DNA of 49,240 bases from Oscillospiraceae bacterium (GTDB lineage Bacteria; Bacillota; Clostridia; Oscillospirales; UBA929): contig JAIRWH010000023.1 in assembly GCA_031253545.1 (NCBI GenBank), forward strand, positions 1 to 49,240. Direction: 5' to 3'. Positions 35,829 through 48,725 of the stretch are shown here, piece after piece (within the stretch, counting starts at the first letter, position 1; each line of letters starts with the position of its first letter). Position numbers and translations under genes: made by a program. The notes under the pieces are model-generated. The model was not told the DNA's origin. It saw nothing but the letters and a program-made list of their open reading frames with translations, and made no database searches.

Positions 35829-36518
35829 TCACACCCTCAGGCGGTAGCCCGCGCCCCACACGGTCTCGATATACTGCGGCTCCCTTGGGTCTTCCTCGGT
35901 TTTCTCGCGGATTTTCTTTATGTGCACCACCACCGTGGCGGCATCGCCAAGCGCGTCAAGCCCCCACACGCGCTCAAACAGCGCGTCTTTGCTGAACACG
36001 CTGTTGGGGTTCTGCGCTAAAAAGGCAAGCAGGTCAAACTCCTTGCCCGTTAAGGCAATCTCGCTCTCGCGCATGAATACCTGCCGCGTGTCTAAGTTCA
36101 CGCGCATTGCGCGTATGGATATTACCCTGTGCCTCGGCGCGCTCTTTTCGCTCATCCGCTTATAACGCGCGAGATGCGCGCCCACCCGCGCCACGAGCTC
36201 GCCCGGCGAAAACGGCTTTTGCACAAAGTCGTCCGCCCCCAGCCCCAAGGCGCGTATCTTGTCCACTTCGTCGCTCTTGGCGGAAAGTATGAGCACGGGT
36301 ATGTCGCATTGCCTCTCGCGCAGTTCGCGCAACACCTCGTAGCCGCTCATGCCCGGCAGCATAATGTCTAATACGCACAGGTCAAAGCCGCCGCCCGCGG
36401 CAAGAGCCAAGCCGCCAGGCCCGTCGCTTGCCAGCGCCGTGTCGTAACCGTGGATTTTCAGGTAATCGCCCACAAGCGCGGCAATCTCCGCGTCGTCTTC
36501 CACAATCAATATTCTCAT
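35829..36518 (-). CDS. OmpR-family DNA-binding response regulator
   Basis: A 229-residue two-component output protein. The receiver domain has the acidic pocket in MRILIVEDDAEIA, the phospho-acceptor Asp in LCVLDIMLPGMSG near residue 50, and the Lys in FVQKPFSPGEL near residue 101. The C-terminal winged helix-turn-helix shows EIALTGKEFDLLAFLAQNP and the wing VWGAGYRLRV. It is the last gene of a six-gene operon and overlaps the histidine kinase by 4 bases. OmpR-type regulators bind tandem half-sites about 10-11 bp apart, and the operon's promoter has four repeats at exactly 11-bp spacing, which suggests autoregulation. Confidence 0.94.
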   Translation of the reverse strand: MRILIVEDDAEIAALVGDYLKIHGYDTALASDGPGGLALAAGGGFDLCVLDIMLPGMSGYEVLRELRERQCDIPVLILSAKSDEVDKIRALGLGADDFVQKPFSPGELVARVGAHLARYKRMSEKSAPRHRVISIRAMRVNLDTRQVFMRESEIALTGKEFDLLAFLAQNPNSVFSKDALFERVWGLDALGDAATVVVHIKKIREKTEEDPREPQYIETVWGAGYRLRV

Positions 36519-37612
36519 GGCTTTACGTCGCCGCCTTCCCGCCGCGCAGGAAGCGACACGCTTGCCAAAAGCCCGCCGTCTTCCGCGTTGCGCAGCCATA
36601 TTTTGCCGCCGTGCAGCGCCATAATCTGCCGCGCTATGGAAAGCCCCAACCCGCTGCCGCCGCGCCCGGAACGCGCCGGGTCGGAGCGGTAAAATCGCTC
36701 GAATACTTTCCGCGTCTCGGCGCTCGGCAGGCCGGAGCCGCCGTCTTGCATGGTGAGCATAATGTCTCCGCCGTGGCGGCGGGCGGTAAATCGCAGACGG
36801 AGGGAGCCGTCGGCGCAGCGCCCGTATTTGTGCGCGTTGTCGGCGAGGTTGCCAAACACCCGTTCCAATTTTTGCCTGTCCGCGCGGCAAAAGAGCCCCG
36901 GCTCAATATCCGCGCGCACCTCGGCGTTTTCGCCCGCCTCGCGCGCAAACGCCTCCAACCATTCGGAAAGGTTTATTTGCTCCAAGTTCACGGGCGGCGC
37001 GTTCTCCAACACGGAAAGATAGTTCAGGTCCTCGGCGAGAGCCGATATTTTGCGCGCTTTCACGGCGATAATCCCCGCGTAAGAGGCCACCTTCTCCGGC
37101 GTGTCCGCCACGCCGTCCGCTATCCCCTCGGCGTAACCGATTATGGATGTCACGGGCGTTTTCAGGTCGTGGCATATGCTGTTCATTATGGAAAGCCGCT
37201 CGTCCTCCGCCTCTTTTGTCTGCCGCAGGCTGTCTTGCAGCCGCGCGCGCATTTGCTCAAAAGCCGAGGCGAGTGAGGAAAACAGACCCATGCCCGCAAG
37301 CGGGAGCGGATAGTCGAGCTGCCCGTCGCGCATGGCGCGAGCCGCCGCTTCCAAACGCTTCATGGGTCCATACACGCGCTTTTGCTCGGCGCGGGCGACC
37401 CACACCACCCAAAGCGGCGTGAGCAACAGCAGCATAACGCCCGCGGCGGGGAAGTACGCCGCCGCCACGGCGAGCATATTGTCGTTTAGCCGTTCGCCGC
37501 AATACGGCGCGGCAAACGCCCAAAAAAGAAAAAAAGCGCCCAGAAGGCAAAACGCCATGAAGAGCAGCGGCGCGGCGAGTTGCACACCCCAAGGGCGGCC
37601 GCTTTCCATCAT
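36515..37612 (-). CDS. Membrane sensor histidine kinase with HAMP domain
   Basis: A 365-residue sensor kinase. Two membrane helices (about residues 12-34 and 45-68) flank a very short external loop of about ten residues, typical of intramembrane-sensing kinases linked to ABC transporters. A HAMP-like segment follows (EAAARAMRDGQLDYPLPLAG), then the H box SICHDLKTPVTSIIGYAEG near residue 151, the N box in LADNAHKYG, and G boxes in MQDGGSGLP and GGSGLGLSIA. It overlaps the ABC permease gene upstream by 4 bases. Two ATG codons begin the gene (37612, 37609). Confidence 0.93.
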   Translation of the reverse strand: MMESGRPWGVQLAAPLLFMAFCLLGAFFLFWAFAAPYCGERLNDNMLAVAAAYFPAAGVMLLLLTPLWVVWVARAEQKRVYGPMKRLEAAARAMRDGQLDYPLPLAGMGLFSSLASAFEQMRARLQDSLRQTKEAEDERLSIMNSICHDLKTPVTSIIGYAEGIADGVADTPEKVASYAGIIAVKARKISALAEDLNYLSVLENAPPVNLEQINLSEWLEAFAREAGENAEVRADIEPGLFCRADRQKLERVFGNLADNAHKYGRCADGSLRLRFTARRHGGDIMLTMQDGGSGLPSAETRKVFERFYRSDPARSGRGGSGLGLSIARQIMALHGGKIWLRNAEDGGLLASVSLPARREGGDVKP

Positions 37613-38364
37613 ACATCCCTTCTCTCAAACACAATCATGCCGCCCAGCGTAAACGCCGCGCCGTAGCCTATGAGAATGAGCGTCACGTTGACCATCTTGC
37701 CCGGCGGCGGCACCGCGCCAATCCAGAGGCGATACCATGTGAGGTAGTCCGTAAAGAGCAGGCCGTTGAGAAACGGCAGCAATATGGGTAGCGCGGCGAA
37801 TACGAGCAACGAGAGTATGAGCAAAAACATGACCAACGTGCCGCTGCCCAGCACGAGCGACACCAGCGCGGCGAACGCCGTCATCACGGCAAGCGGCGCG
37901 AGCGTCAGCGCGTAGGAGCCGATGGCGGCGAAAAACTTGCCCGGGGTGTTTACCGCACCGGAGATAAGCCCCGTAATCTCGCCCACCGCGAGTATAACGG
38001 CAAGGTAGGCGGCGATGTAGGCGAGCACGGCCAAAGCCTTGGCGGCATAGAGCTTCACCCTGTGGCAGGGGCGGATGAGGCAGGCGCGTATGGTGTGGTC
38101 GGCAAACTCCGCCGTGAAGAGGTCGGCGCAGCCCATGAAGATGAGCAGCGGCAGCAGCACACAGGCAAAGAGCGGCAACGACGATGTGGGCGTAAAGCCC
38201 AACTCCATGAACAGCGACGCGCCGCCCAGAAGCGCCAAGCCCTTCACAATCATGTTGCCCAAAAACGACCAAAACACGGAAAACAACACGCCGAGAGCCA
38301 TAAACACGATGTATTTTTTGTGGTTGAGGAGTTTGCTTATCTCGTTTGCCAATGCCGCCCTCAC
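37609..38364 (-). CDS. ABC-2-type transporter permease
   Basis: A 251-residue integral membrane protein with about six hydrophobic segments and a cytoplasmic basic start (NEISKLLNHKKYI), as in ABC-2 permeases of the bacitracin/lantibiotic-resistance type. Overlaps of 4 bases with the ATPase gene upstream and the kinase gene downstream indicate one transporter-sensor unit. Its substrate is unknown; export or removal of an envelope-active compound is the usual role of such pairs. Confidence 0.85.
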   Translation of the reverse strand: MRAALANEISKLLNHKKYIVFMALGVLFSVFWSFLGNMIVKGLALLGGASLFMELGFTPTSSLPLFACVLLPLLIFMGCADLFTAEFADHTIRACLIRPCHRVKLYAAKALAVLAYIAAYLAVILAVGEITGLISGAVNTPGKFFAAIGSYALTLAPLAVMTAFAALVSLVLGSGTLVMFLLILSLLVFAALPILLPFLNGLLFTDYLTWYRLWIGAVPPPGKMVNVTLILIGYGAAFTLGGMIVFERRDV

Positions 38365-39086
38365 GCCGAAAGCCTCCCTTTGCGGTAATTCTGCACCTCG
38401 GCAAGGTAATAATCCTCCAGCGAGGGCGAAACGGTAAGCACTTCCGCCATCGTCGCCGTTTTCAGTAGCATACCGTCGTGCATTACGCCCACCTTCGTGG
38501 CGCTCAACTCAATCTCATGGGCGAGGTGGCTGGATATGAGCACGGCCGCGCCCGAAGCGGCGGCGTTTTTCACAATTTCGCGTATGGCCACCATACCCTC
38601 GATGTCAAGCCCGTTGGCGGGCTCGTCTAATATCAGCACGGAAGGACGGCTCAGCAGCGCCAAAGCCACCCCCAGGCGTTGCCGCATACCGAGCGAAAAG
38701 CTCAGCACTTTGTCTTTGGGGTAGCGCTCCAACTCCACAATCGCCAACACTTCGTCCACACGGCCACCCGGCAGTTCCGGGTAGTAGGCCGCCGCCATCT
38801 CCAAATTGCGCCGCGCGGTAAGCCTGTCAAACAGGGCGGGCGATTCGATGAGCGCGCCGACCCCGGCGAGCGCCGCTTCCCTCCGCGTGACCACATCGTG
38901 GCCGCCGATGGCGGCGCGCCCCGCCGTGGGCAGCACAAGCCCCACGCAGGCCTTCATCACGGTGGTTTTGCCGGAGCCGTTAGGCCCCAGCAAACCCATA
39001 ACCTCGCCGCCTTCCACACAAAAGGTCACTTCGCGTGCGCCGCGCCCGTTTTTATAGAGCTTTGTCAGCCCGTCGGCTGTCAGCAT
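38361..39086 (-). CDS. ABC transporter ATP-binding protein (BcrA-like)
   Basis: A 241-residue nucleotide-binding subunit. Walker A is GPNGSGKTT near residue 35, the Q-loop region contains VGALIESPALFDR, the signature is [16 protein letters not shown] near residue 130, Walker B is LILDEPANGLD, and the switch His lies in ISSHLAHEIE. The ESPALFDRLTARRNLEM pattern is typical of the BcrA/LanF immunity and bacitracin export subgroup. It pairs with the ABC-2 permease it overlaps and begins 2 bases after the exported protein gene. Confidence 0.93.
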   Translation of the reverse strand: MLTADGLTKLYKNGRGAREVTFCVEGGEVMGLLGPNGSGKTTVMKACVGLVLPTAGRAAIGGHDVVTRREAALAGVGALIESPALFDRLTARRNLEMAAAYYPELPGGRVDEVLAIVELERYPKDKVLSFSLGMRQRLGVALALLSRPSVLILDEPANGLDIEGMVAIREIVKNAAASGAAVLISSHLAHEIELSATKVGVMHDGMLLKTATMAEVLTVSPSLEDYYLAEVQNYRKGRLSA

Positions 39087-39088
39087 AA

Positions 39089-40576
39089 CTAAAAGTCCGC
39101 CGCCGTGGGCGCGGGTTTAGCTTCGGCGCGCCCCATCGGGCTGCGGCCGCTTAAAGCGCCTTTGGTAGTTTTGGTATCGTAGATGATGTCGGTTTTGGTA
39201 TCGTAGATGATGTCGTCGTATACCCCGCCTTTGTATTCCGGGCTTATGCTGCTCTCGTCAACCGTGCCGTCTTCATTGAGCGCGAAGTAGAGCGCGTAGT
39301 AATAGCCGTATACGGGGGAGGAAAAGTCGTAGTCATACATGCCGTAGTATTCCTTGAAGTAAAGTTCGCTGTCTTTGAGCACCATATCGTAATACTCGTC
39401 GAAGTATTCCCCGTCCGGCTTGTAGTCTTCAAGCAGCGCCAAGCGCTGCCGCTCCGCCGTTTCGCGCATTTGCTCCCTATAGCTCTCGAAATGCGCCGTC
39501 ATGTATTCCTCGGTGAAGAGCTCTTCAAGCCCCGGTATGGGCGAAGTGACCACGGTGGAGTTTACGCGCTCAAACGCCGCGTCCGCGATAACCTCAACCT
39601 CCGCCGTCTCCCCGAAGATTGTCACGAGTTTCAGGCGCAGCGTGCCCGTCAGGGACGCGATATAGCCGTCTTCCCCGATAACGGCCGTGCCGCTCACAAA
39701 ATCAATTTTCGCGGATTCCATGGGGTGGTCGGTCTTAACATCGCCGTAATCGGCGGGAACGGCCTCGCCCTTTCGCTCGGAAAGCAGGTTTTTACTATGG
39801 TCGCTGAAAATCTCCTCCGTGCCGTCCGGGTGCGTGTAGACGCGCTCGGTCCATTTTTCTTCCCATACGCGCACGGTCTTGACCTTGCCATCGAGGATTG
39901 TCTCTTCCCATACATAGCTGTCGCCGACGCGGTAATCGAAATCGTTGACGTAGCGGCTGTAGCCGCTTTGCGAGGCGAGCAGCAGGCTCAGCCCCGCGTT
40001 ATACAGCTCCGGGATTTGCGCGGCCGTGAGTGTGCCGCTTACCGTTTTTGTGCCGCCGCCGCTGATGACAAGGTTGTGCTTTAAGTCGCCCACCGCGGCG
40101 TCTAAGGCGAGGTCCGCGAAGCGAAACGCCAAGCCGTCGCGCTCGAAGGGCGGCGCGGAAAAGGGCCCATACACATTCTGCGGGTAAAAACTATTAAGGT
40201 AAAAACTATTATGCCGGCTCACCAAATACCACTGTCTGCCGTCTTCGCTTTTGCCGGCGGGCACGGCGGTGTCGAGACTGATGCCGGACATGCCCTCCTC
40301 ACCGTATTTGCGGTAGTTCACCCAGCCGTCATTTATTTCCACAAAGCCCGTGGCGCCGTATTGCTTATACTGTTCGCCGCTGTCTTGAAAAAGTTCCCCG
40401 TCCGCGTAGAGCCTGACGCGCGTGGTCATGGTGTATGTCTCCGCGAATAATGTGTCTATGGCGGCCTTTTTCAATGTGTCATACGGCGAGCCGGTAAACG
40501 CCGCCGCCGCGACCGCGCCCGCGAGCACCACGAGCGACACAAGCAGGCACATAGGGCGCGTGAGGTATTTCTTCAT
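39089..40576 (-). CDS. Exported protein of unknown function, paralogue B
   Basis: A 495-residue protein with an N-terminal signal or anchor segment (RPMCLLVSLVVLAGAVAAAAF, roughly residues 8-27) and no lipobox. The mature part is Tyr/Asp/Glu-rich with no recognised domain. It shares the signal region and several blocks with the upstream paralogue: FRFADLALDAAVGDLKHNL, the segment around TAAQIPELYNAGLSLLLAS, and GLEELFTEEYM. The C-terminus is a Tyr/Asp-rich stretch with an exact 8-residue tandem repeat DIIYDTKT. It directly precedes the ABC ATPase gene. It might bind a ligand or a wall component sensed by the linked kinase; that is inference from position only. Confidence 0.8.
   Translation of the reverse strand: MKKYLTRPMCLLVSLVVLAGAVAAAAFTGSPYDTLKKAAIDTLFAETYTMTTRVRLYADGELFQDSGEQYKQYGATGFVEINDGWVNYRKYGEEGMSGISLDTAVPAGKSEDGRQWYLVSRHNSFYLNSFYPQNVYGPFSAPPFERDGLAFRFADLALDAAVGDLKHNLVISGGGTKTVSGTLTAAQIPELYNAGLSLLLASQSGYSRYVNDFDYRVGDSYVWEETILDGKVKTVRVWEEKWTERVYTHPDGTEEIFSDHSKNLLSERKGEAVPADYGDVKTDHPMESAKIDFVSGTAVIGEDGYIASLTGTLRLKLVTIFGETAEVEVIADAAFERVNSTVVTSPIPGLEELFTEEYMTAHFESYREQMRETAERQRLALLEDYKPDGEYFDEYYDMVLKDSELYFKEYYGMYDYDFSSPVYGYYYALYFALNEDGTVDESSISPEYKGGVYDDIIYDTKTDIIYDTKTTKGALSGRSPMGRAEAKPAPTAADF
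39168..39215 (-). repeat. Exact 24-bp tandem duplication inside exported paralogue B
   Basis: Two identical 24-base copies (39168-39191 and 39192-39215) lie head to tail and keep the frame, giving DIIYDTKT twice near the C-terminus. Identity at nucleotide level suggests a recent slippage event. Confidence 0.9.
40184..40213 (-). repeat. 15-bp tandem duplication inside exported paralogue B
   Basis: Two adjacent 15-base copies (40184-40198, 40199-40213) differ at one position and encode the pentapeptide pair NSFYL and NSFYP. The frame is preserved. Confidence 0.85.
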
Positions 40577-40654
40577 AGCCGTAATCTCCTTCGTTTTTAT
40601 TGTGGCGGCGCGGCCTCCGGGGGTCGGTATACCGTTGGGTCGCCAATGGGGTCG

Positions 40655-41923
40655 TCAATCAATGTAATCAATGAGAACGAGGGATTCGTCGTCATAAAAC
40701 GACGTGGTCACGCTGCTTTTATCCACAGTGCCGTCCGGCAGCAACTTGAAATAGAGCGTGAAGTAATACCAGCCGCCGCCCGGAAGAAGCGCTGAGCTTG
40801 ACCACGGGTTAAAGAGCGCGGCTTTGTCGCTGTCCCAGTAGCCGGGGTAGAAACTGAGCACATACTCTTCCGTAAAGAGCTCTTCCAAACCCTCGACAGG
40901 GCAACGCGGCTCGGTGGAGTTCACGTTCTCAAAAGTGGCGCTCACGCGCAGTTCTATCTCTTTGGATTCGCCGAAGATGGTTGTGGTGCCAATGCGCGCC
41001 ACGCCTTCCGCCGAGGCGATATAGCCGTCGGAGTCAATGGCGGCCGTGCCGGACACAAAGGTAATCTTGCCAGATTCGAAGGGCTGGTTCATCCACGCGC
41101 CGTAATCGTCGGGCGTGGCCTCTTCGCGGCGTTCCGAGAGCAGTTTGACATCGTAATTCAAGTAGGTGTATGTCGAACCGTCGTACGCGGTGTCGGTAAC
41201 CTCGGTAACGGTCTCCTCCCAAACCCGCACGGTCTTCGCTTTGCCCTCAAGGGTCGTTTCCCCGTAGGTGTACACGCCGGGGGCATCATGCCGACCGCCG
41301 TCGTATTTATCGGTAACCGTGCGCGTGTAGAGGCTTGAAGAGGCGAGCGCGAGGTTCAGCGCGGCGTTATACAGCTCCGGGATTTGCGCGGCGGTAAATG
41401 TGCCGCTGACTGTCTTCACGCCGCCGCTCTCGCTGACGGCAAGGTTGTGCCTCAGGTCGCCCACGGCCGCGTCGAGCGCCAGCTCCAAGAAGCGGTAGGT
41501 CATGTCGCCGCGCTCAATGCTGCCCGTAAGGCCGGAGGAGTAAGGACCGGCGGAATAATCCGGGTTATGGAAACTGAGCGAATACCACTTCTCCCCCGCG
41601 CCGTCCGGAGTGCCCGCGTCCATGTTATACAGCGAATAGGCAGGCGTGGCGAAGGTAAAGTTCCCGGGGGCCGCCGAACGGTATGAGGCTCCCTCGGCGT
41701 ATTGCAGGTATTGATAAAGGTCCGGTTCTCCTTCGTAAGGCACGCCGTCCACATAGAGCGCGCCGCGCAGGGTAATTGTGACGCTCTTGGCAAACAGCGT
41801 GTCCGCGGCGGCTTTTTTCAGCGTCTCATACGGCGAGCCGGTAAACGCCGCCGCCGTGACCGCGCCCGCGAGCACCACGAGCGACACAAGCAGGCACATA
41901 GGGCGCGTGAGGTATTTCTTCAT
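40655..41923 (-). CDS. Exported protein of unknown function, paralogue A
   Basis: A 422-residue paralogue of the downstream protein, with the same N-terminal signal segment (MKKYLTRPMCLLVSL onward) followed by TGSPYETLKKAAADTLFAK. Shared blocks include FLELALDAAVGDLRHNLAV, TFTAAQIPELYNAALNLAL, TLEGKAKTVRVWEE and GLEELFTEEYVLSFY. It lacks the long Tyr/Asp-rich C-terminal extension of paralogue B. No catalytic motif or anchoring signal is seen beyond the N-terminus. It is the first gene of the six-gene operon, with GAGGAG before its ATG and a promoter carrying 11-bp repeats. A 78-base gap separates it from paralogue B. Confidence 0.8.
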   Translation of the reverse strand: MKKYLTRPMCLLVSLVVLAGAVTAAAFTGSPYETLKKAAADTLFAKSVTITLRGALYVDGVPYEGEPDLYQYLQYAEGASYRSAAPGNFTFATPAYSLYNMDAGTPDGAGEKWYSLSFHNPDYSAGPYSSGLTGSIERGDMTYRFLELALDAAVGDLRHNLAVSESGGVKTVSGTFTAAQIPELYNAALNLALASSSLYTRTVTDKYDGGRHDAPGVYTYGETTLEGKAKTVRVWEETVTEVTDTAYDGSTYTYLNYDVKLLSERREEATPDDYGAWMNQPFESGKITFVSGTAAIDSDGYIASAEGVARIGTTTIFGESKEIELRVSATFENVNSTEPRCPVEGLEELFTEEYVLSFYPGYWDSDKAALFNPWSSSALLPGGGWYYFTLYFKLLPDGTVDKSSVTTSFYDDESLVLIDYID

Positions 41924-41955
41924 GGGTTATCCACTCCTCTTTCGGTATTTGCCCC

Positions 41956-42009
41956 ATTATACACCGCAATAATAAAACGCCGATAAAGAAACAATAAAGT
42001 TTTTATAAA
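41956..42009 (-). promoter_or_regulatory. Promoter of the six-gene operon with four direct repeats at 11-bp spacing
   Basis: On the minus strand the -10 is a consensus TATAAT (41956-41961), while no acceptable -35 exists at 16-18 bp. In its place and upstream lie four TTTAT pentamers at exactly 11-bp intervals (plus-strand ATAAA at 41972, 41983, 41994 and 42005). A weak -35 replaced by phased half-sites is the usual architecture of a promoter activated by an OmpR/PhoB-type regulator, and such a regulator is encoded in this operon. A/T-rich bending or an UP element is an alternative reading. Confidence 0.6.
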
Positions 42010-42130: not shown

Positions 42131-43105
42131 TCACGGCGTTTGCGTGGCGATGGTGCCGTCGGGGGCGATGTCAAGCTCCATATGCTTGACGCAGCGCTTG
42201 TGCGATACGCCCCCGGAAAGCTCGCTGTCGTGGTAGAAGAGATACCATTTGCCCTCAAACTCCACTATTGAGTGGTGCGAAGTCCAACCGAGCACAGGCT
42301 CCAATATCCTGCCTTTGTAGGTAAACGGCCCCAACGGGCTGTCGCCCTCGGCATACACAAGGTAATGCGTGGTGCCCGTGGAATACGATAAATAGTATTT
42401 GCCGTTGTGCTTGTGCATCCACGGCCCCTCGAAGTAGCGCCTGTCTTCGTCCGCGCAGGTGAGCGGACGCCCATGTTCGTCGAGTATATCCGCCTGTCTC
42501 GGCGACGACTTAAAACCGAGCATATCGTCGCTCATCTCGGCGACCATTGGCGTAATGGCGGGCGCGTCGCCCAAAGAGCCTTGCTGGTGCGGCGCGGCGG
42601 GGTCATACACGCCGCTCTGCCAGCGTTCCAACTGGCCGCCCCATATACCCCCGAAATACATATACGAGCGCCCGTCGCCGTCGGTAAACACGGCGGGGTC
42701 TATGCTGAAGCTGCCGGGTATATACCCCGGCTCCGGGCGAAACGGCCCGGCGGGGTTCTCGCTCACCGCCACGCCTATGCGAAACACGCCTTCTTTGTCC
42801 TTTGCGGGGAAATATAGGTAGTACAGCCCGTTTTTACAGGCCGCGTCCGGCGCCCACATCTGGCGGCTTGCCCACGGCACGTCTTTCACATGGAGCGCCT
42901 CGCCGCAGTCCACGCACTCGGCCCCCGGCCTTTCCATGGACAGGACATGGTAATCGGTCATTTGGTATTGGTCGCCGTCGTCGTCGTCCGGCACATCCAA
43001 GTCCACATCATGCGAGGGGTAGATGTATATTTTGCCCGCGAATACGTGCGCCGACGGGTCGGCGGTGAAGATATGCCGCACTAACGGCTTCCTGAAACCT
43101 GACAT
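42131..43105 (-). CDS. Glycoside hydrolase family 43 protein
   Basis: A 324-residue five-bladed beta-propeller glycosidase of the GH43 type, a family acting on arabinosyl, xylosyl and related linkages. The three acidic residues fit TADPSAHVF (base, near residue 15), SIDPAVFTDGDGRSYMYFGG (middle Asp, near residue 135) and FEGPWMHKHNGKYYLSYS (acid, near residue 226), with the blade motif QMWAPDAACKNGLYYLYF. There is no signal peptide, so it should be cytoplasmic and act on imported oligosaccharides. It is divergent from the GH95 gene. The exact substrate cannot be read from the sequence. Confidence 0.92.
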   Translation of the reverse strand: MSGFRKPLVRHIFTADPSAHVFAGKIYIYPSHDVDLDVPDDDDGDQYQMTDYHVLSMERPGAECVDCGEALHVKDVPWASRQMWAPDAACKNGLYYLYFPAKDKEGVFRIGVAVSENPAGPFRPEPGYIPGSFSIDPAVFTDGDGRSYMYFGGIWGGQLERWQSGVYDPAAPHQQGSLGDAPAITPMVAEMSDDMLGFKSSPRQADILDEHGRPLTCADEDRRYFEGPWMHKHNGKYYLSYSTGTTHYLVYAEGDSPLGPFTYKGRILEPVLGWTSHHSIVEFEGKWYLFYHDSELSGGVSHKRCVKHMELDIAPDGTIATQTP

Positions 43106-43184
43106 TGACGCGCGACCTCCCGTTTTGTTTTATTCAAGCAACCGCCAAACCCCCGCGGCACCCGGCGCGCTCGCTTGTATTACC

Positions 43185-43213
43185 ATTGTGCGCCATAAAA
43201 GGCCGCTTGTCAA
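43185..43213 (-). promoter_or_regulatory. Promoter of the GH43 gene
   Basis: Minus-strand consensus TTGACA (43208-43213) and CACAAT (43185-43190) with a 17-bp spacer, about 80 bases before the GH43 start. Confidence 0.6.
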
Positions 43214-43235
43214 GCGCCCGCTCCCGCGCCTGTGC

Positions 43236-43264
43236 TTTATATCGCGGGCGAAATGGTGTATAAT
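43236..43264 (+). promoter_or_regulatory. Promoter of the GH95 gene
   Basis: Plus-strand consensus TATAAT (43259-43264), with only a weak TTTATA (43236-43241) at 17 bp upstream, 45 bases before the chosen TTG start. The poor -35 suggests dependence on an activator. The GH43 and GH95 promoters are back to back within 80 bp, so a single regulator could control both. Confidence 0.55.
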
Positions 43265-43309
43265 CATTTCACGCCGTATCCACACACAAAAAAGAAGGGA
43301 GTGCCGCGT

Positions 43310-45820
43310 TTGTCGGTCACACACGGCAAAGCGCCCGCAGCGCCGGGCGGCAACGGCTTGGCGTTGCTCTATGAGCGGCCCGCAGAAGTTTGGGAGAGCG
43401 AGGCGCTGCCGCTCGGTAACGGATTCATGGGCGCCATGGTGTTCGGCGGCGTGACCGAGGAGCGGGTGCAGCTCAACGAACATTCCCTGTGGTCGGGAGG
43501 GCCCGGTGCCTGCGCGGAATACAACGGCGGCCACAAAGGCGACCCGGAGCAAAACAGGGCCGCCCTGCGGCGGTTGCGCCGCAGGCTGCAGGAGCGCGCG
43601 GGCGCGGACGGCGGGTATACGCCCGCGAATACCGGCGGTTACGCCCCCATAGAGGAAGACCCGCGTACCGAGGCGCTCATAAGGCAACTCATGGGCGATA
43701 AAACGCACTTCGGAAGCTACCAATCGCTGTGCGACCTCTATATAGCCGACCGCCGCCCGGCAACGCCGTATGAAGATTACTCGCGCTCGCTCGATATATC
43801 CCGCGCCGTCATGAGCGTGCGCTACTCGCAAGGCGGCGTGAGCCATAGGCGCGAATACTTTATCTCGCACAAGCCCAATGTCTTGGCGATACGCCTGACG
43901 GCAAGCGCGCCGGGCGCCGTTTCGCGCCTTGTGCGCGTAACCTCGCCCCACGCGCGAAGCGCCGTTACCGCCGAAGGCTGCGCCGTCACGCTCACGGGTC
44001 GCCCCGACGGCCACGGCGAGGGCGGCCTGCGTTTCGCCCTGCGGTGCGTTGTGAGCGCCGAGGGCGGCGTTGTCGCGTCTTCGGACGGCGTTATCACGGT
44101 GGAGGGCGCGGACAGCGTGGTGCTGCTGCTCTCCGCCGCCACCAATTACGTTATGTGCATGGACGATTCTTTCAATTACTTCTCCCCCGATGACCCGCTT
44201 GACACAGTAAACGCCAACCTCGCCCTCGCCGGGCAAAGCGCCTTTGACGCGCTGCTCGATGGGCACATATCAGACCACAAAGCCATGTTCGGCAGGGTGA
44301 GCCTTACTCTCGGCGCGGCGGCAAATTGCCCGCGCAAACCCACCGACGGGCTGCTGCGCGGCTACGGCGGCGGCAACACCGCCGAGGAAGACCGCTATAT
44401 CGAAACGCTCCTCTACCAATACGGGCGCTATTTGCTCATATCCTCCTCGCGCCCGGGCGGCCTGCCCGCCAATCTGCAAGGCATATGGGCGGACGGGCTC
44501 AACCCGCCCTGGGATTCGGACTACCACACCAACATCAACCTGCAAATGAACTATTGGCTCGCCCTGCCATCCAACCTGCCGGAATGCCACCTGCCGCTTA
44601 TCGAATACACCAAAAGCCTCGCGCCGCGCGGCATGCTCACGGCAAATCGGTATTACTGCCGCCCCGACGGCGGCCCCGCGCGCGGCTGGGTGACAGGCCA
44701 CGAAAACAATATCTGGGGTCACACGGCTCCCGGCGAATGGTATTGGGGTTTCTTCGCCCCGGAAGCCGCCGCGTGGCTCTGCGCGGATATATGGCGGCAC
44801 TACGCCTATACGCGGGACAAGGTCTTTTTGGCGGAAAACTACGACACGCTGCTGCAAGCCGCCCTGTTTTGGACGGACACGCTCTGTGTGGACGAGCGCG
44901 ACGGCACCTACGCGGCCAACCCCTCATATTCCCCGGAACACGGCCCGTACACCGTTGGAGCCACATTCACGCAGGGGGTTATATGGGAGCTGTTCCACGC
45001 CGTAATCGCCGCCTCGGAAGCGTTGGGTCGCTCCGCAAGCGAAGAAATCGCCCAAATAAAAGAGCGCATGGCAAACCTTTCCATGCCGTCTATCGGCAAA
45101 GGCGGGCAATTCATGGAATGGAAAGACGAAATACCCTTGGACTTCCTCGGCACAGACAGCCCCGTTTCGCCCGTAAAGCACCGCCATTGCAACCACCTCT
45201 TTTGGTTGCACCCGGGCAGCTTCGTCATACCCAAACGCGAGGGCGCGCCTTACGGTTACGGCGAATACGCCCTCGCCATAAGGCAAACGCTCGATACGCG
45301 CGGCGACGAAGGGCCCGGCTGGAGCAGGGCGTGGAAGCTCAACCTTTGGGCAAGGCTGCGCGACGGCAACAGGGCGCACTCCCTGTTGCGCGGCTTTATA
45401 AAAGACACACTCCTGCCCAATCTCTTTTCCACCCACCCGCCCTTCCAAATAGACGGCAACTTCGGCGCGGCCGCCGGCATTGCGGAAATGCTGCTCCAAA
45501 GCCACGACGCGGGCATAGACCTGTTGCCCGCGCTACCGGAGGCGTGGCGCGAGGGCAGCGTGAGCGGGCTGCGCGCCGAAGGCGGCTTCGAGGTGAACTT
45601 AGTTTGGAGCGGCGGCGCGCTCAGACATGCCACCCTGCGCTCTTGCGCGCCCCGCGCCGCGCGGCTCACCCTCCGTTACCCCGGCATATCCGCCATGCCC
45701 GTGACCGACGGCGGCGGCGGCACGGTGGATACGGATATACTCAGCCCCGGCACGCTTTGCCTCACGACCGAGCCGGGAGAAACATATCACGCGGGCGCTC
45801 GCCCGCCGAAAGGAGAGTAA
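43310..45820 (+). CDS. Glycoside hydrolase family 95 protein, probable alpha-L-fucosidase or galactosidase
   Basis: An 836-residue GH95 enzyme. The N-terminal domain has the family motif [17 protein letters not shown] near residue 38. The (alpha/alpha)6 barrel contains [19 protein letters not shown] and NLQMNYW, which hold the two catalytic Asn of characterised 1,2-alpha-L-fucosidases, then NPSYSPEHG with the acidic residue, and [16 protein letters not shown] with the conserved Asp. GH95 members remove alpha-1,2-fucose or alpha-L-galactose from plant or host glycans by inversion. I chose the TTG at 43310 because AAGGGAG lies 7 bases upstream. There is no signal peptide, so it is presumably cytoplasmic. 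Confidence 0.93.
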
Positions 45821-46124: not shown

Positions 46125-48725
46125 ATGCTGCTGCTGAAAAACATTACCAAAGACTACATCGTGGGGCCCGCGAAGGTGGAAGCTCTGCGCGGGCTGAGCC
46201 TCGCGTTCCGCACATCGGAATTCGTATCCGTGCTCGGCCCGTCCGGCTGCGGGAAAACCACCCTGCTCAACCTGCTCGGCGGATTGGACCGCTACACCGC
46301 AGGCGACATCATCATCGGAGGCAAATCCACCAAAGACTTCACCGAACGCGACTGGGACACCTACCGCAACAGGCGTATCGGCTTCGTGTTCCAAAACTAC
46401 AACCTCATACCCCACCAAAGCGTGCTCTCCAATGTGGAACTGGCGCTCACGCTCTCCGGCGTGTCGCGCTCGGAGCGCCGTTCCCGCGCCGTGTCGGTGC
46501 TTGAACGCGTGGGCTTGGGCGACCAACTTTCCAAAAAGCCCACCCAAATGTCCGGCGGGCAAATGCAGCGCGTGGCAATCGCGCGCGCCTTGGTCAACAA
46601 CCCCGATATACTCATGGCCGACGAACCCACCGGGGCGCTTGATTCCGAAAACAGCGTACAGGTCATGGAAATCTTGAAAGAGATTGCCAAAGACCGCCTT
46701 GTGATATTGGTCACGCATAACTCCGACCTTGCCGAACGCTACTCCACGCGCACCATAAAACTCTTAGACGGCAAAATCACCGACGACAGCGACCCCTACG
46801 ACCCCGGCGACGCAAAGACCGCGAAGGCCGCAAAAAGCGAACGCCGCGCCAAGACCTCCATGTCCTTCCTCACGGCGCTCTCGCTTTCCACCAATAACCT
46901 CCTCACCAAGAAAACACGCACGTTTATGACGGCGTTCGCGGGCAGCATAGGCATTATAGGCATCGCGCTCATACTCGCGCTCTCAAGCGGCTTTCAGCGG
47001 TACATAGACCGCATGCAGGAGGACACGCTCTCCACATATCCGCTCACCATCGAGCAGACCACCACCGACCTCACGAGTATGCTCAACGCCATGAGCGCCG
47101 TGCGGCAGCGCGAGGAACACCCGCTTGACAAAGTATATTCCGGCAACATCATGACGAAAATGGTGGAAACCATGCTCAAACAGATTGACACCAACGACCT
47201 CGCCTCGTTTAAGGTATACTTAGACGACCACGAAACCGCCCTGCGCCCCTGGGTAAACGACATCAAATACTCCTACAACCTCCACCTCAATATATTCGCC
47301 GCCGATTACGAAGACGAAATCACTCGCGTGAACCCCTTCCGCCTCTTTGAGTCCTCCGGCATGGGAAACGGCGTGGATTATTCCTCCATGTCCGGCATGG
47401 GCATGACGGGCGGCGGCGTGGAAATCTGGTCGGAAATGCTCGACAACGAGCAGCTGCTCACCGCCCAGTTTGAGCTACTCGCGGGAGAGTGGCCGGACGA
47501 GTGGAACGAGGTGGTGCTTGTGGTGGACGAACACAACGAGATTACCGACTTTTCCATGTACGCGCTCGGCCTCAAAGACGCCTCGGAGATAGACGAAATG
47601 TTTAAGGCGTTCGTGACCCCCGGCACCGAATACACCGCGCCGGGGGTGACTGTGCTCACCTACGACGAGGTGCTGGCCATCACCTACCTGTATGTGCCGG
47701 AAACCTCGCTCTATAAGCGCGCGGGCGAAGGCTGGCTCGATATGCGCGACGACGACGCGTATATGAGGGAGCTGCTCGCCTCCGAAGCCGAGGTTATCCG
47801 CGTGACGGGCATACTGCGCCCCGCCGAAGACGTGGAGATGACCTCCATCGGCAGCACGGTGGGCTACCTGAAGCTGCTCACCGAGCACCTTGTGGAGGTG
47901 GCGGCGGAAGCGGACATAGTGCGTGCCCAGCTTGCCGCGCCGGACACGGACGTGTTCACGGGCAAGCCATTCGCCGCAGAGGGGGAGGCGGAGCCGCCCT
48001 TCGACATCTCAAGCCTTCCCCCGGAGCAGCAGGCGTGGCTTGCCACACTGAGCGAGGAGGAACGCGCGGAGCTTATCAGGAGCTTCTCCCCCACCTCCTC
48101 GGCCACATACGAGGGCAACATGGCCAAGTTCGGCGCGCTCTCGCTCGACGACCCCTCCTCCATAGCCATATACCCCGTGGACTTTGCCTCGAAGGAAAGC
48201 ATTACGGAGTTTATATCCGACTACAATAAATCCGTCACAGACAGCGGCCACGAGGAGCTTGTCATCCACTACACCGACTTCATAGGCCTGCTCCTGAGCT
48301 CCGTCAGCTCGATTATCAACGCCATCAGCTATGTGCTCATCGCCTTTGTGGGTATCTCCCTTGTGGTCTCCTCCATCATGATTGGCATTATCACCTATGT
48401 GTCCGTGCTTGAGCGCACCAAGGAAATCGGCATACTCAAAGCCATCGGCGCGAGCGCGAAGGACATCTCCCGCGTGTTTAACGCCGAAACGCTCATCGTG
48501 GGCTTCACGGCCGGCGCGCTCGGCATATTGGTCACCCTGTTGCTTTGCATACCCGCCAACGCCATCATCAAAAACCTCACCGACGTGGGAGGTATCGCCG
48601 CCCTGCCGCTCCTCGGCGGCGTGGTGCTCGTGGCTCTGAGCATGGGTCTCACGTTGCTCGCCGGGCTTATCCCCTCGCGTATCGCCGCCCGCAAAGACCC
48701 TGTGGAGGCGCTCAGAAGCGAGTAG
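46125..48725 (+). CDS. Fused ABC transporter, ATPase plus FtsX/MacB-like permease
   Basis: An 866-residue fusion. The N-terminal ~225 residues form a LolD/MacB-type ATPase: Walker A GPSGCGKTT near residue 39, Q loop FVFQNYNLIPHQ, signature QMSGGQMQRVAIARAL, Walker B ILMADEPTGALDSE and switch VTHNSDLAERY. After a charged linker comes a membrane helix (near residues 260-285), then about 430 residues of extracytoplasmic sequence, and three C-terminal helices of an FtsX-like domain (VLIAFVGISLVVSSIMIGII, ERTKEIGILKAIGAS). Such exporters act mechanically on envelope substrates or peptides rather than importing sugars. The order of domains within one chain is common in Gram-positive genomes. A promoter and repeat array precede it. 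Confidence 0.92.
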   Translation: MLLLKNITKDYIVGPAKVEALRGLSLAFRTSEFVSVLGPSGCGKTTLLNLLGGLDRYTAGDIIIGGKSTKDFTERDWDTYRNRRIGFVFQNYNLIPHQSVLSNVELALTLSGVSRSERRSRAVSVLERVGLGDQLSKKPTQMSGGQMQRVAIARALVNNPDILMADEPTGALDSENSVQVMEILKEIAKDRLVILVTHNSDLAERYSTRTIKLLDGKITDDSDPYDPGDAKTAKAAKSERRAKTSMSFLTALSLSTNNLLTKKTRTFMTAFAGSIGIIGIALILALSSGFQRYIDRMQEDTLSTYPLTIEQTTTDLTSMLNAMSAVRQREEHPLDKVYSGNIMTKMVETMLKQIDTNDLASFKVYLDDHETALRPWVNDIKYSYNLHLNIFAADYEDEITRVNPFRLFESSGMGNGVDYSSMSGMGMTGGGVEIWSEMLDNEQLLTAQFELLAGEWPDEWNEVVLVVDEHNEITDFSMYALGLKDASEIDEMFKAFVTPGTEYTAPGVTVLTYDEVLAITYLYVPETSLYKRAGEGWLDMRDDDAYMRELLASEAEVIRVTGILRPAEDVEMTSIGSTVGYLKLLTEHLVEVAAEADIVRAQLAAPDTDVFTGKPFAAEGEAEPPFDISSLPPEQQAWLATLSEEERAELIRSFSPTSSATYEGNMAKFGALSLDDPSSIAIYPVDFASKESITEFISDYNKSVTDSGHEELVIHYTDFIGLLLSSVSSIINAISYVLIAFVGISLVVSSIMIGIITYVSVLERTKEIGILKAIGASAKDISRVFNAETLIVGFTAGALGILVTLLLCIPANAIIKNLTDVGGIAALPLLGGVVLVALSMGLTLLAGLIPSRIAARKDPVEALRSE

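Follow-up and report, generated by a model that had tools for sequence, protein, structure and literature searches.

What is the role of an operon that joins two exported paralogues to an ABC exporter and a two-component system, and how is it switched on? The question is raised by six co-oriented minus-strand genes (35829–41923) lying downstream of one promoter in the window, by which is meant the whole stretch of 49,240 nucleotides analysed from an Oscillospiraceae bacterium (contig JAIRWH010000023.1); the source genome is 1.8 Mb in size and 97% complete. In order of transcription the genes encode P1, a secreted protein of 422 residues (40655–41923); P2, its secreted paralogue of 495 residues (39089–40576); an ABC ATPase of 241 residues (38361–39086); an ABC-2 permease of 251 residues (37609–38364); a sensor histidine kinase of 365 residues (36515–37612); and an OmpR/PhoB-type response regulator of 229 residues (35829–36518), the best matches of which are VanR-like. 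P1 and P2 are separated by 78 bp and P2 and the ATPase gene by 2 bp, and the ATPase–permease, permease–kinase and kinase–regulator junctions each overlap by 4 bp. Both coordinates and counts agree with the initial annotation, which had described six minus-strand genes after one promoter, the last five being 2 bp apart or overlapping by 4. No strong internal promoter or terminator, either of which the same annotation took to speak against a single operon, was found between the genes, and the P1–P2 gap contains no unusual RNA fold, convincing internal promoter or structured leader.

On its promoter side the operon is flanked by divergent GH43 and GH95 glycoside hydrolase genes (42131–45820). In genome G005, too, a protein with a start resembling that of the GH43 in the window is encoded close to the operon (locus L010, 2551–3528). 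A second exporter, an 866-residue fusion of an ABC ATPase and an FtsX-like permease, is encoded 4 kb from the operon on the plus strand (46125–48725). Nothing in the genes neighbouring the operon points to a cluster for resistance or peptide biosynthesis.

The promoter (41956..42009, minus strand) carries four TTTAT(N6) half-sites, starting at 42009, 41998, 41987 and 41976 and thus exactly 11 bp apart, followed by a perfect -10 TATAAT at 41961–41956. No sigma-70-type -35/-10 pair was found at the operon promoter, so that the repeats, the perfect -10 and the missing -35 are all as originally claimed. The range first assigned to the locus, 35829–42009, is correct for the genes and the array; the -10 hexamer and the start codon fall inside it, and the array plus -10 itself spans 42009–41956. 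When the promoter was shuffled 2000 times under a first-order Markov model, four repeats of the same word at one spacing never arose, and the window has one instance of the full array pattern, against none in 100 shuffles. In a pattern search of the whole 1.8-Mb genome, a relaxed form of the pattern with up to two mismatches allowed has a single site, with 0 for a control pattern. A wider regulon in this genome was considered and rejected, since the same search gave no second site.

A degenerate 11-bp array is present in nearly every system of a conserved gene cassette to which the operon belongs, and which is headed by relatives of P1 and P2 (collectively termed P). Across 17 non-redundant loci, the best four-repeat array upstream of P averages a score of 23.8 at a spacing of 11 bp, against 13–14 at 7–10 and 12–16 bp. 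The motif trained on these 17 loci was applied unchanged to 18 held-out loci, where it scored 22.3 at 11 bp against 7–9 at 8–10 and 12–15 bp. Seventeen of the 18 held-out loci lie above their shuffles (p ≤ 0.03); the exception, L091, had a misassigned start codon, and with this put right a good array appears. A TANNNT hexamer is found exactly at +48 from the first repeat in 33 of the 35 loci; no other offset examined has one in more than 9 of them. Among loci, the array stands 83 to 219 bp from the start codon, which indicates that the phasing is not just a product of overall sequence conservation.

The architecture of the array is of a known kind. The half-sites bound by the OmpR/PhoB-family regulator KdpE, TTTATA and TTTACA, have 5 bp between them (PMC3264566) and match the present array in both word and register; PHO boxes consist of direct repeats of 11 nt (PMC4415409). 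The present promoter shares 11-bp direct repeats with KdpE- and PhoB-type promoters but differs from them in having four repeats, a -10 fixed at +48 and the regulator's own operon as its target. It is this strict four-fold, -10-phased form, tied to the P cassette, that is new. The resulting rule, TTTAT four times at 11 bp with a -10 at +48, is sharp and can be used to find targets of such regulators. Over 391 genomes of the class, the strict pattern gave scattered matches, many of them in AT-rich genomes; some ten of these matches, outside the window, immediately precede a P gene, as judged by comparison of positions. Arrays of four TTTA words at 11 bp with TANNNT at +48 also occur far from P genes (G419:C15:97185, G569:C9:51885, G613:C8:453563 and others). 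Some of these P-distant arrays in other Clostridia may be sites of further OmpR-type regulators and others may be due to chance.

The regulator contains a PF00072 receiver and a PF00486 Trans_reg_C winged helix, both above cut-off, which bears out its assignment to the OmpR type. In 35 loci the direct repeats of the target promoter recur every 11 bp exactly, which fits the 10–11 bp expected for OmpR/PhoB proteins. The occurrence of the conserved, -10-phased array in loci carrying this regulator, together with the unique site in the genome, supports dedicated autoregulation. The operon promoter is thus very probably autoregulatory, as had been proposed from the window by itself, and the operon's own regulator would be expected to bind the array.

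For the exported proteins at the head of the operon, Pfam, NCBIfam and PHROGs contain no family and the PDB no sequence relative, whether searched as single sequences or as profiles. P1 and P2 are paralogues with 46% identity. When the aligned P proteins were read by eye, all were found to have an N-terminal signal sequence, mostly with AxA-type end sites, and none was found to have a lipobox cysteine; an identity as lipoproteins, including LanI immunity lipoproteins, was rejected on this ground. AlphaFold2 models were built from family alignments and are of middling confidence (pLDDT 70–74: 73.6 for the 280-residue P of Anaerovorax and 70.3 for P1). The Anaerovorax model matches LppX (Z 9.9), LprG (9.7), LprF (9.6), LolA (8.4), RseB (8.2) and MucB (7.1), and the best match of the P1 model is LprF (Z 8.6), with RseB at 6.3. 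Foldseek agrees with the LolA superfamily for the compact Anaerovorax P (LprG, E 4e-6), although the ranking for P1 disagrees and TM-scores are low. On the basis of these models, the P proteins probably adopt a LolA/LppX/LprG/RseB-like fold.

LolA works with an ABC transporter, LolCDE. Proteins of the LolA superfamily share pockets for hydrophobic ligands, and its members include both carriers and the sensor RseB (PMC6363788). P resembles LolA, LppX, LprG, LprF, RseB and MucB in being exported and in its predicted curved half-barrel with helices. It differs in having no detectable sequence relationship to them and no lipobox, and in its clostridial setting beside a two-component system and an ABC-2 pump.

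P is part of a recurrent unit. A profile search with the exported proteins, a check advised by the initial annotation, found relatives across Clostridia and no named family: P is present in 49 of 391 sampled genomes of the class and in 12 of 394 genomes of the window's own order, with P1 matches in the same genus (G001), the same family (G005) and, more weakly, the order. Named carriers include Oscillospiraceae and Peptococcaceae bins, Anaerovorax sp. IOR16 and Candidatus Avimonoglobus, among others. The cassette comprises P, the ABC ATPase, one ABC-2 permease, the kinase and the OmpR-type regulator. In all four opened loci of P1 relatives, P heads the order P-(P)-ATPase-permease-kinase-regulator or most of it. 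Among the class-wide matches, 20 loci were opened; every one has P together with ATPase, permease and kinase, and at least 18 have the regulator alongside; at one of the loci (L087) another ORF follows the kinase gene. The constant company of ATPase, permease and kinase makes the exported protein a core member of the cassette. The initial annotation had placed the two exported proteins outside the standard part of the module; P is instead its first gene, usually in one copy. One Clostridium P protein was compared with PLSDB for signs of plasmid carriage and had no match. Topic searches of the open-access literature, which lacks most subscription papers, found no description of the cassette.

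A conserved and apparently unnamed cassette is therefore carried by about one in eight sampled Clostridia genomes. The two-component system with an ABC-2 resistance-type operon is known; the apparently unnamed secreted family at its head adds to such operons a previously unrecognised component with a predicted lipid-carrier fold. The closest known counterparts of the cassette are the CprABC/LanFEG-type peptide-resistance operons and LnrJK-LnrLMN. CprABC-type operons, such as Clostridioides difficile CprABC-CprK-CprR and Streptococcus mutans LcrSR-LctFEG (PMC5786555), likewise combine a LanF-like ATPase, six-TM ABC-2 permeases of about 250 residues, a kinase and an OmpR-type regulator; they stand alone without biosynthesis genes, and in C. 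difficile a lipoprotein gene adjoins cprABC (PMC5786555). In contrast to these operons, the window and the relatives opened have one permease gene and not two six-TM ABC-2 permeases, the regulator gene lies inside the operon, cprR being distant, and the first gene encodes a secreted protein of predicted LolA fold. The kinase loop is 15 residues in the window against 112–117 in CprABC-type systems. The ATPase, which has TIGR03740 (lantibiotic protection ATPase) as its best NCBIfam model, falls below the cut-off of that LanF model (192.6 bits against 309.75). Bacillus subtilis LnrJK-LnrLMN (PMC7472640) similarly sets a two-component system beside an ABC transporter and answers membrane-active amphiphiles (linearmycin, amphotericin), but there the two-component genes come first, the transporter has three genes and the locus as described contains no LolA-fold protein.

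Six genomes of genus g184 carry a similar four-repeat array before a LanFEG/CprABC-like two-permease transporter with no adjoining two-component system (L131 7241–7188, L132 1848–1901, L136, L137, L138 and L139). This transporter has a LanF-like ATPase (276.7 bits) and MutG/MutE-like permeases, the best NCBIfam matches being lantibiotic-immunity families. The P system is also present in five of the six genomes, and the arrangement is suggestive of control of the two-permease transporter by the same regulator. In the sixth genome, G443, the array is present while the P system is missing, as are its permease and a close regulator; arrays of this type may therefore be recognised by other regulators too.

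The pump and the kinase bear on how the module might work. The permease is an ABC-2 protein (PF12730/PF12679) with about six TM peaks; it gave no match to the FtsX domain (PF02687) and has no large loop. The kinase has two TM segments followed by HAMP, HisKA and HATPase domains. Its extracytoplasmic loop is 15 residues in the window and 13–15 within the window's clade, which includes two relatives, but 26–49 or 73–137 residues in most other relatives. It had been labelled an intramembrane-type kinase: the loop of the window protein is indeed within the limit of about 25 residues for intramembrane sensing, yet the protein carries a HAMP domain, and the longer loops of its relatives mean that the label does not define the family. 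The differing lengths suggest that the sensor part has been exchanged within the family, and kinase signals may differ between lineages.

We give an even chance to the operon being, as a whole picture, an inducible and self-contained envelope-protection module. What the sequences show directly is how the genes are laid out, that the cassette is conserved and the array phased, and which domains and export signals the proteins carry; the direction of export, the class of cargo and a hand-over from pump to P are inferred. The kinase would sense a membrane-active amphiphile (a peptide antibiotic, a polyene-like compound or a stray lipid), or the damage it causes, and would phosphorylate the OmpR-type regulator. 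Monomers of the regulator would then sit head-to-tail on the four 11-bp half-sites, replacing a -35 beside the fixed -10, and activate the operon that encodes them. The single ABC-2 permease, presumably a homodimer, would work with the ATPase to move the amphiphile out of the membrane, where the secreted, LolA-fold P would bind it in its hydrophobic half-barrel and prevent its re-entry. The cassette also provides an entry point for studying how gut Clostridia respond to membrane-active compounds. More tentatively, it might constitute a LolA-like relay in Clostridia, in which a lipid, or a peptide resembling one, passes from the ABC-2 pump to the secreted LolA-fold acceptor and the filling of the acceptor reports to the kinase; transport, protection and sensing would then form one circuit under the four-site phased promoter, and P would found a new family.

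The main rival built from the same parts is that P acts mainly as a sensor resembling RseB or MucB. Unliganded P would hold the kinase off, a lipid or peptide in the half-barrel would release it, and the pump would clear the ligand and reset the system. RseB and MucB both appear among the structural matches, lipid signals antagonise MucA–MucB binding (PMC7400510), P shares its cassette with the kinase in all loci opened, and the kinase of the window's clade is almost devoid of a sensor loop, as if in need of a partner. We nevertheless consider this reading unlikely: many members keep P though their kinase has an extracytoplasmic loop of its own of 91–137 residues, and the P gene adjoins the ATPase and permease genes, not that of the kinase. 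Doubtful to a similar degree is a strict CprABC/LanFEG-type lantibiotic resistance operon, in which P would intercept lantibiotics in the manner of LanI. It would account for TIGR03740 being the closest ATPase model, for protein sizes that fit Table 1 of PMC5786555 (NBD of 225–255 residues, six-TM permeases mostly of 214–252 and response regulators of 219–229), and for the array before the LanFEG-like transporter in g184. The sub-threshold ATPase score, the weak MutE match of the permease (E 0.0074), the single permease gene and a P that is no lipoprotein all argue against it.

Housekeeping extrusion of lipids or lipoproteins in answer to the state of the envelope, and not to foreign compounds, is improbable. 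The fold matches to LprG, LppX, LprF and LolA would suit a pathway such as LolCDE-LolA or LprG with its exporter, but carriage of P by only about one in eight sampled Clostridia and 12 of 394 genomes of the order argues against a housekeeping role, and the dedicated two-component system and single-operon site suggest inducible use. The Bce-like detoxification module first proposed can practically be dismissed: it shares with BceRS-BceAB an ABC pair, an OmpR-type regulator and a short-loop kinase, but that loop is not kept in relatives, and membership is ruled out by permease family and size, a Bce permease being defined as of FtsX type with a large extracytoplasmic domain (PMC5786555, PMC3023708) and BceB having ten TM helices and a hallmark extracellular domain of 200–250 residues (PMC5786555), for which a 251-residue ABC-2 protein has no room. 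With the protection module as the preferred reading, some variation among its members may be added. An extra 248-residue ORF lies between the ATPase and permease genes at L081 6306–7052 (equal to L034 9313–10059), and a tandem repeat stretch, read as MDNGQWT repeats, lies between the permease and kinase genes of a Peptococcaceae bin (L031 11867–12412). A C-terminal GGADGPT (or GGADSAT or NGADGPT) is found at or near the end of P in L011, L012, L033, L043 and L044; the motif is absent from the window's P1 and P2.

A tree of the mature parts places the two members of each P pair (window, G001 and L031) next to each other; the pairs have therefore been duplicated separately or kept alike. The first 33 codons of P1 (41923–41825) and P2 (40576–40478) are 98% identical in DNA, with the same codon used at 31 of 31 shared amino acids; after codon 60, DNA identity is 55% and same-codon use 57%. 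This points to recent gene conversion or exchange of the signal-sequence region between P1 and P2. A weaker identity of the signal region is also seen in the P pairs of G001 and L031.
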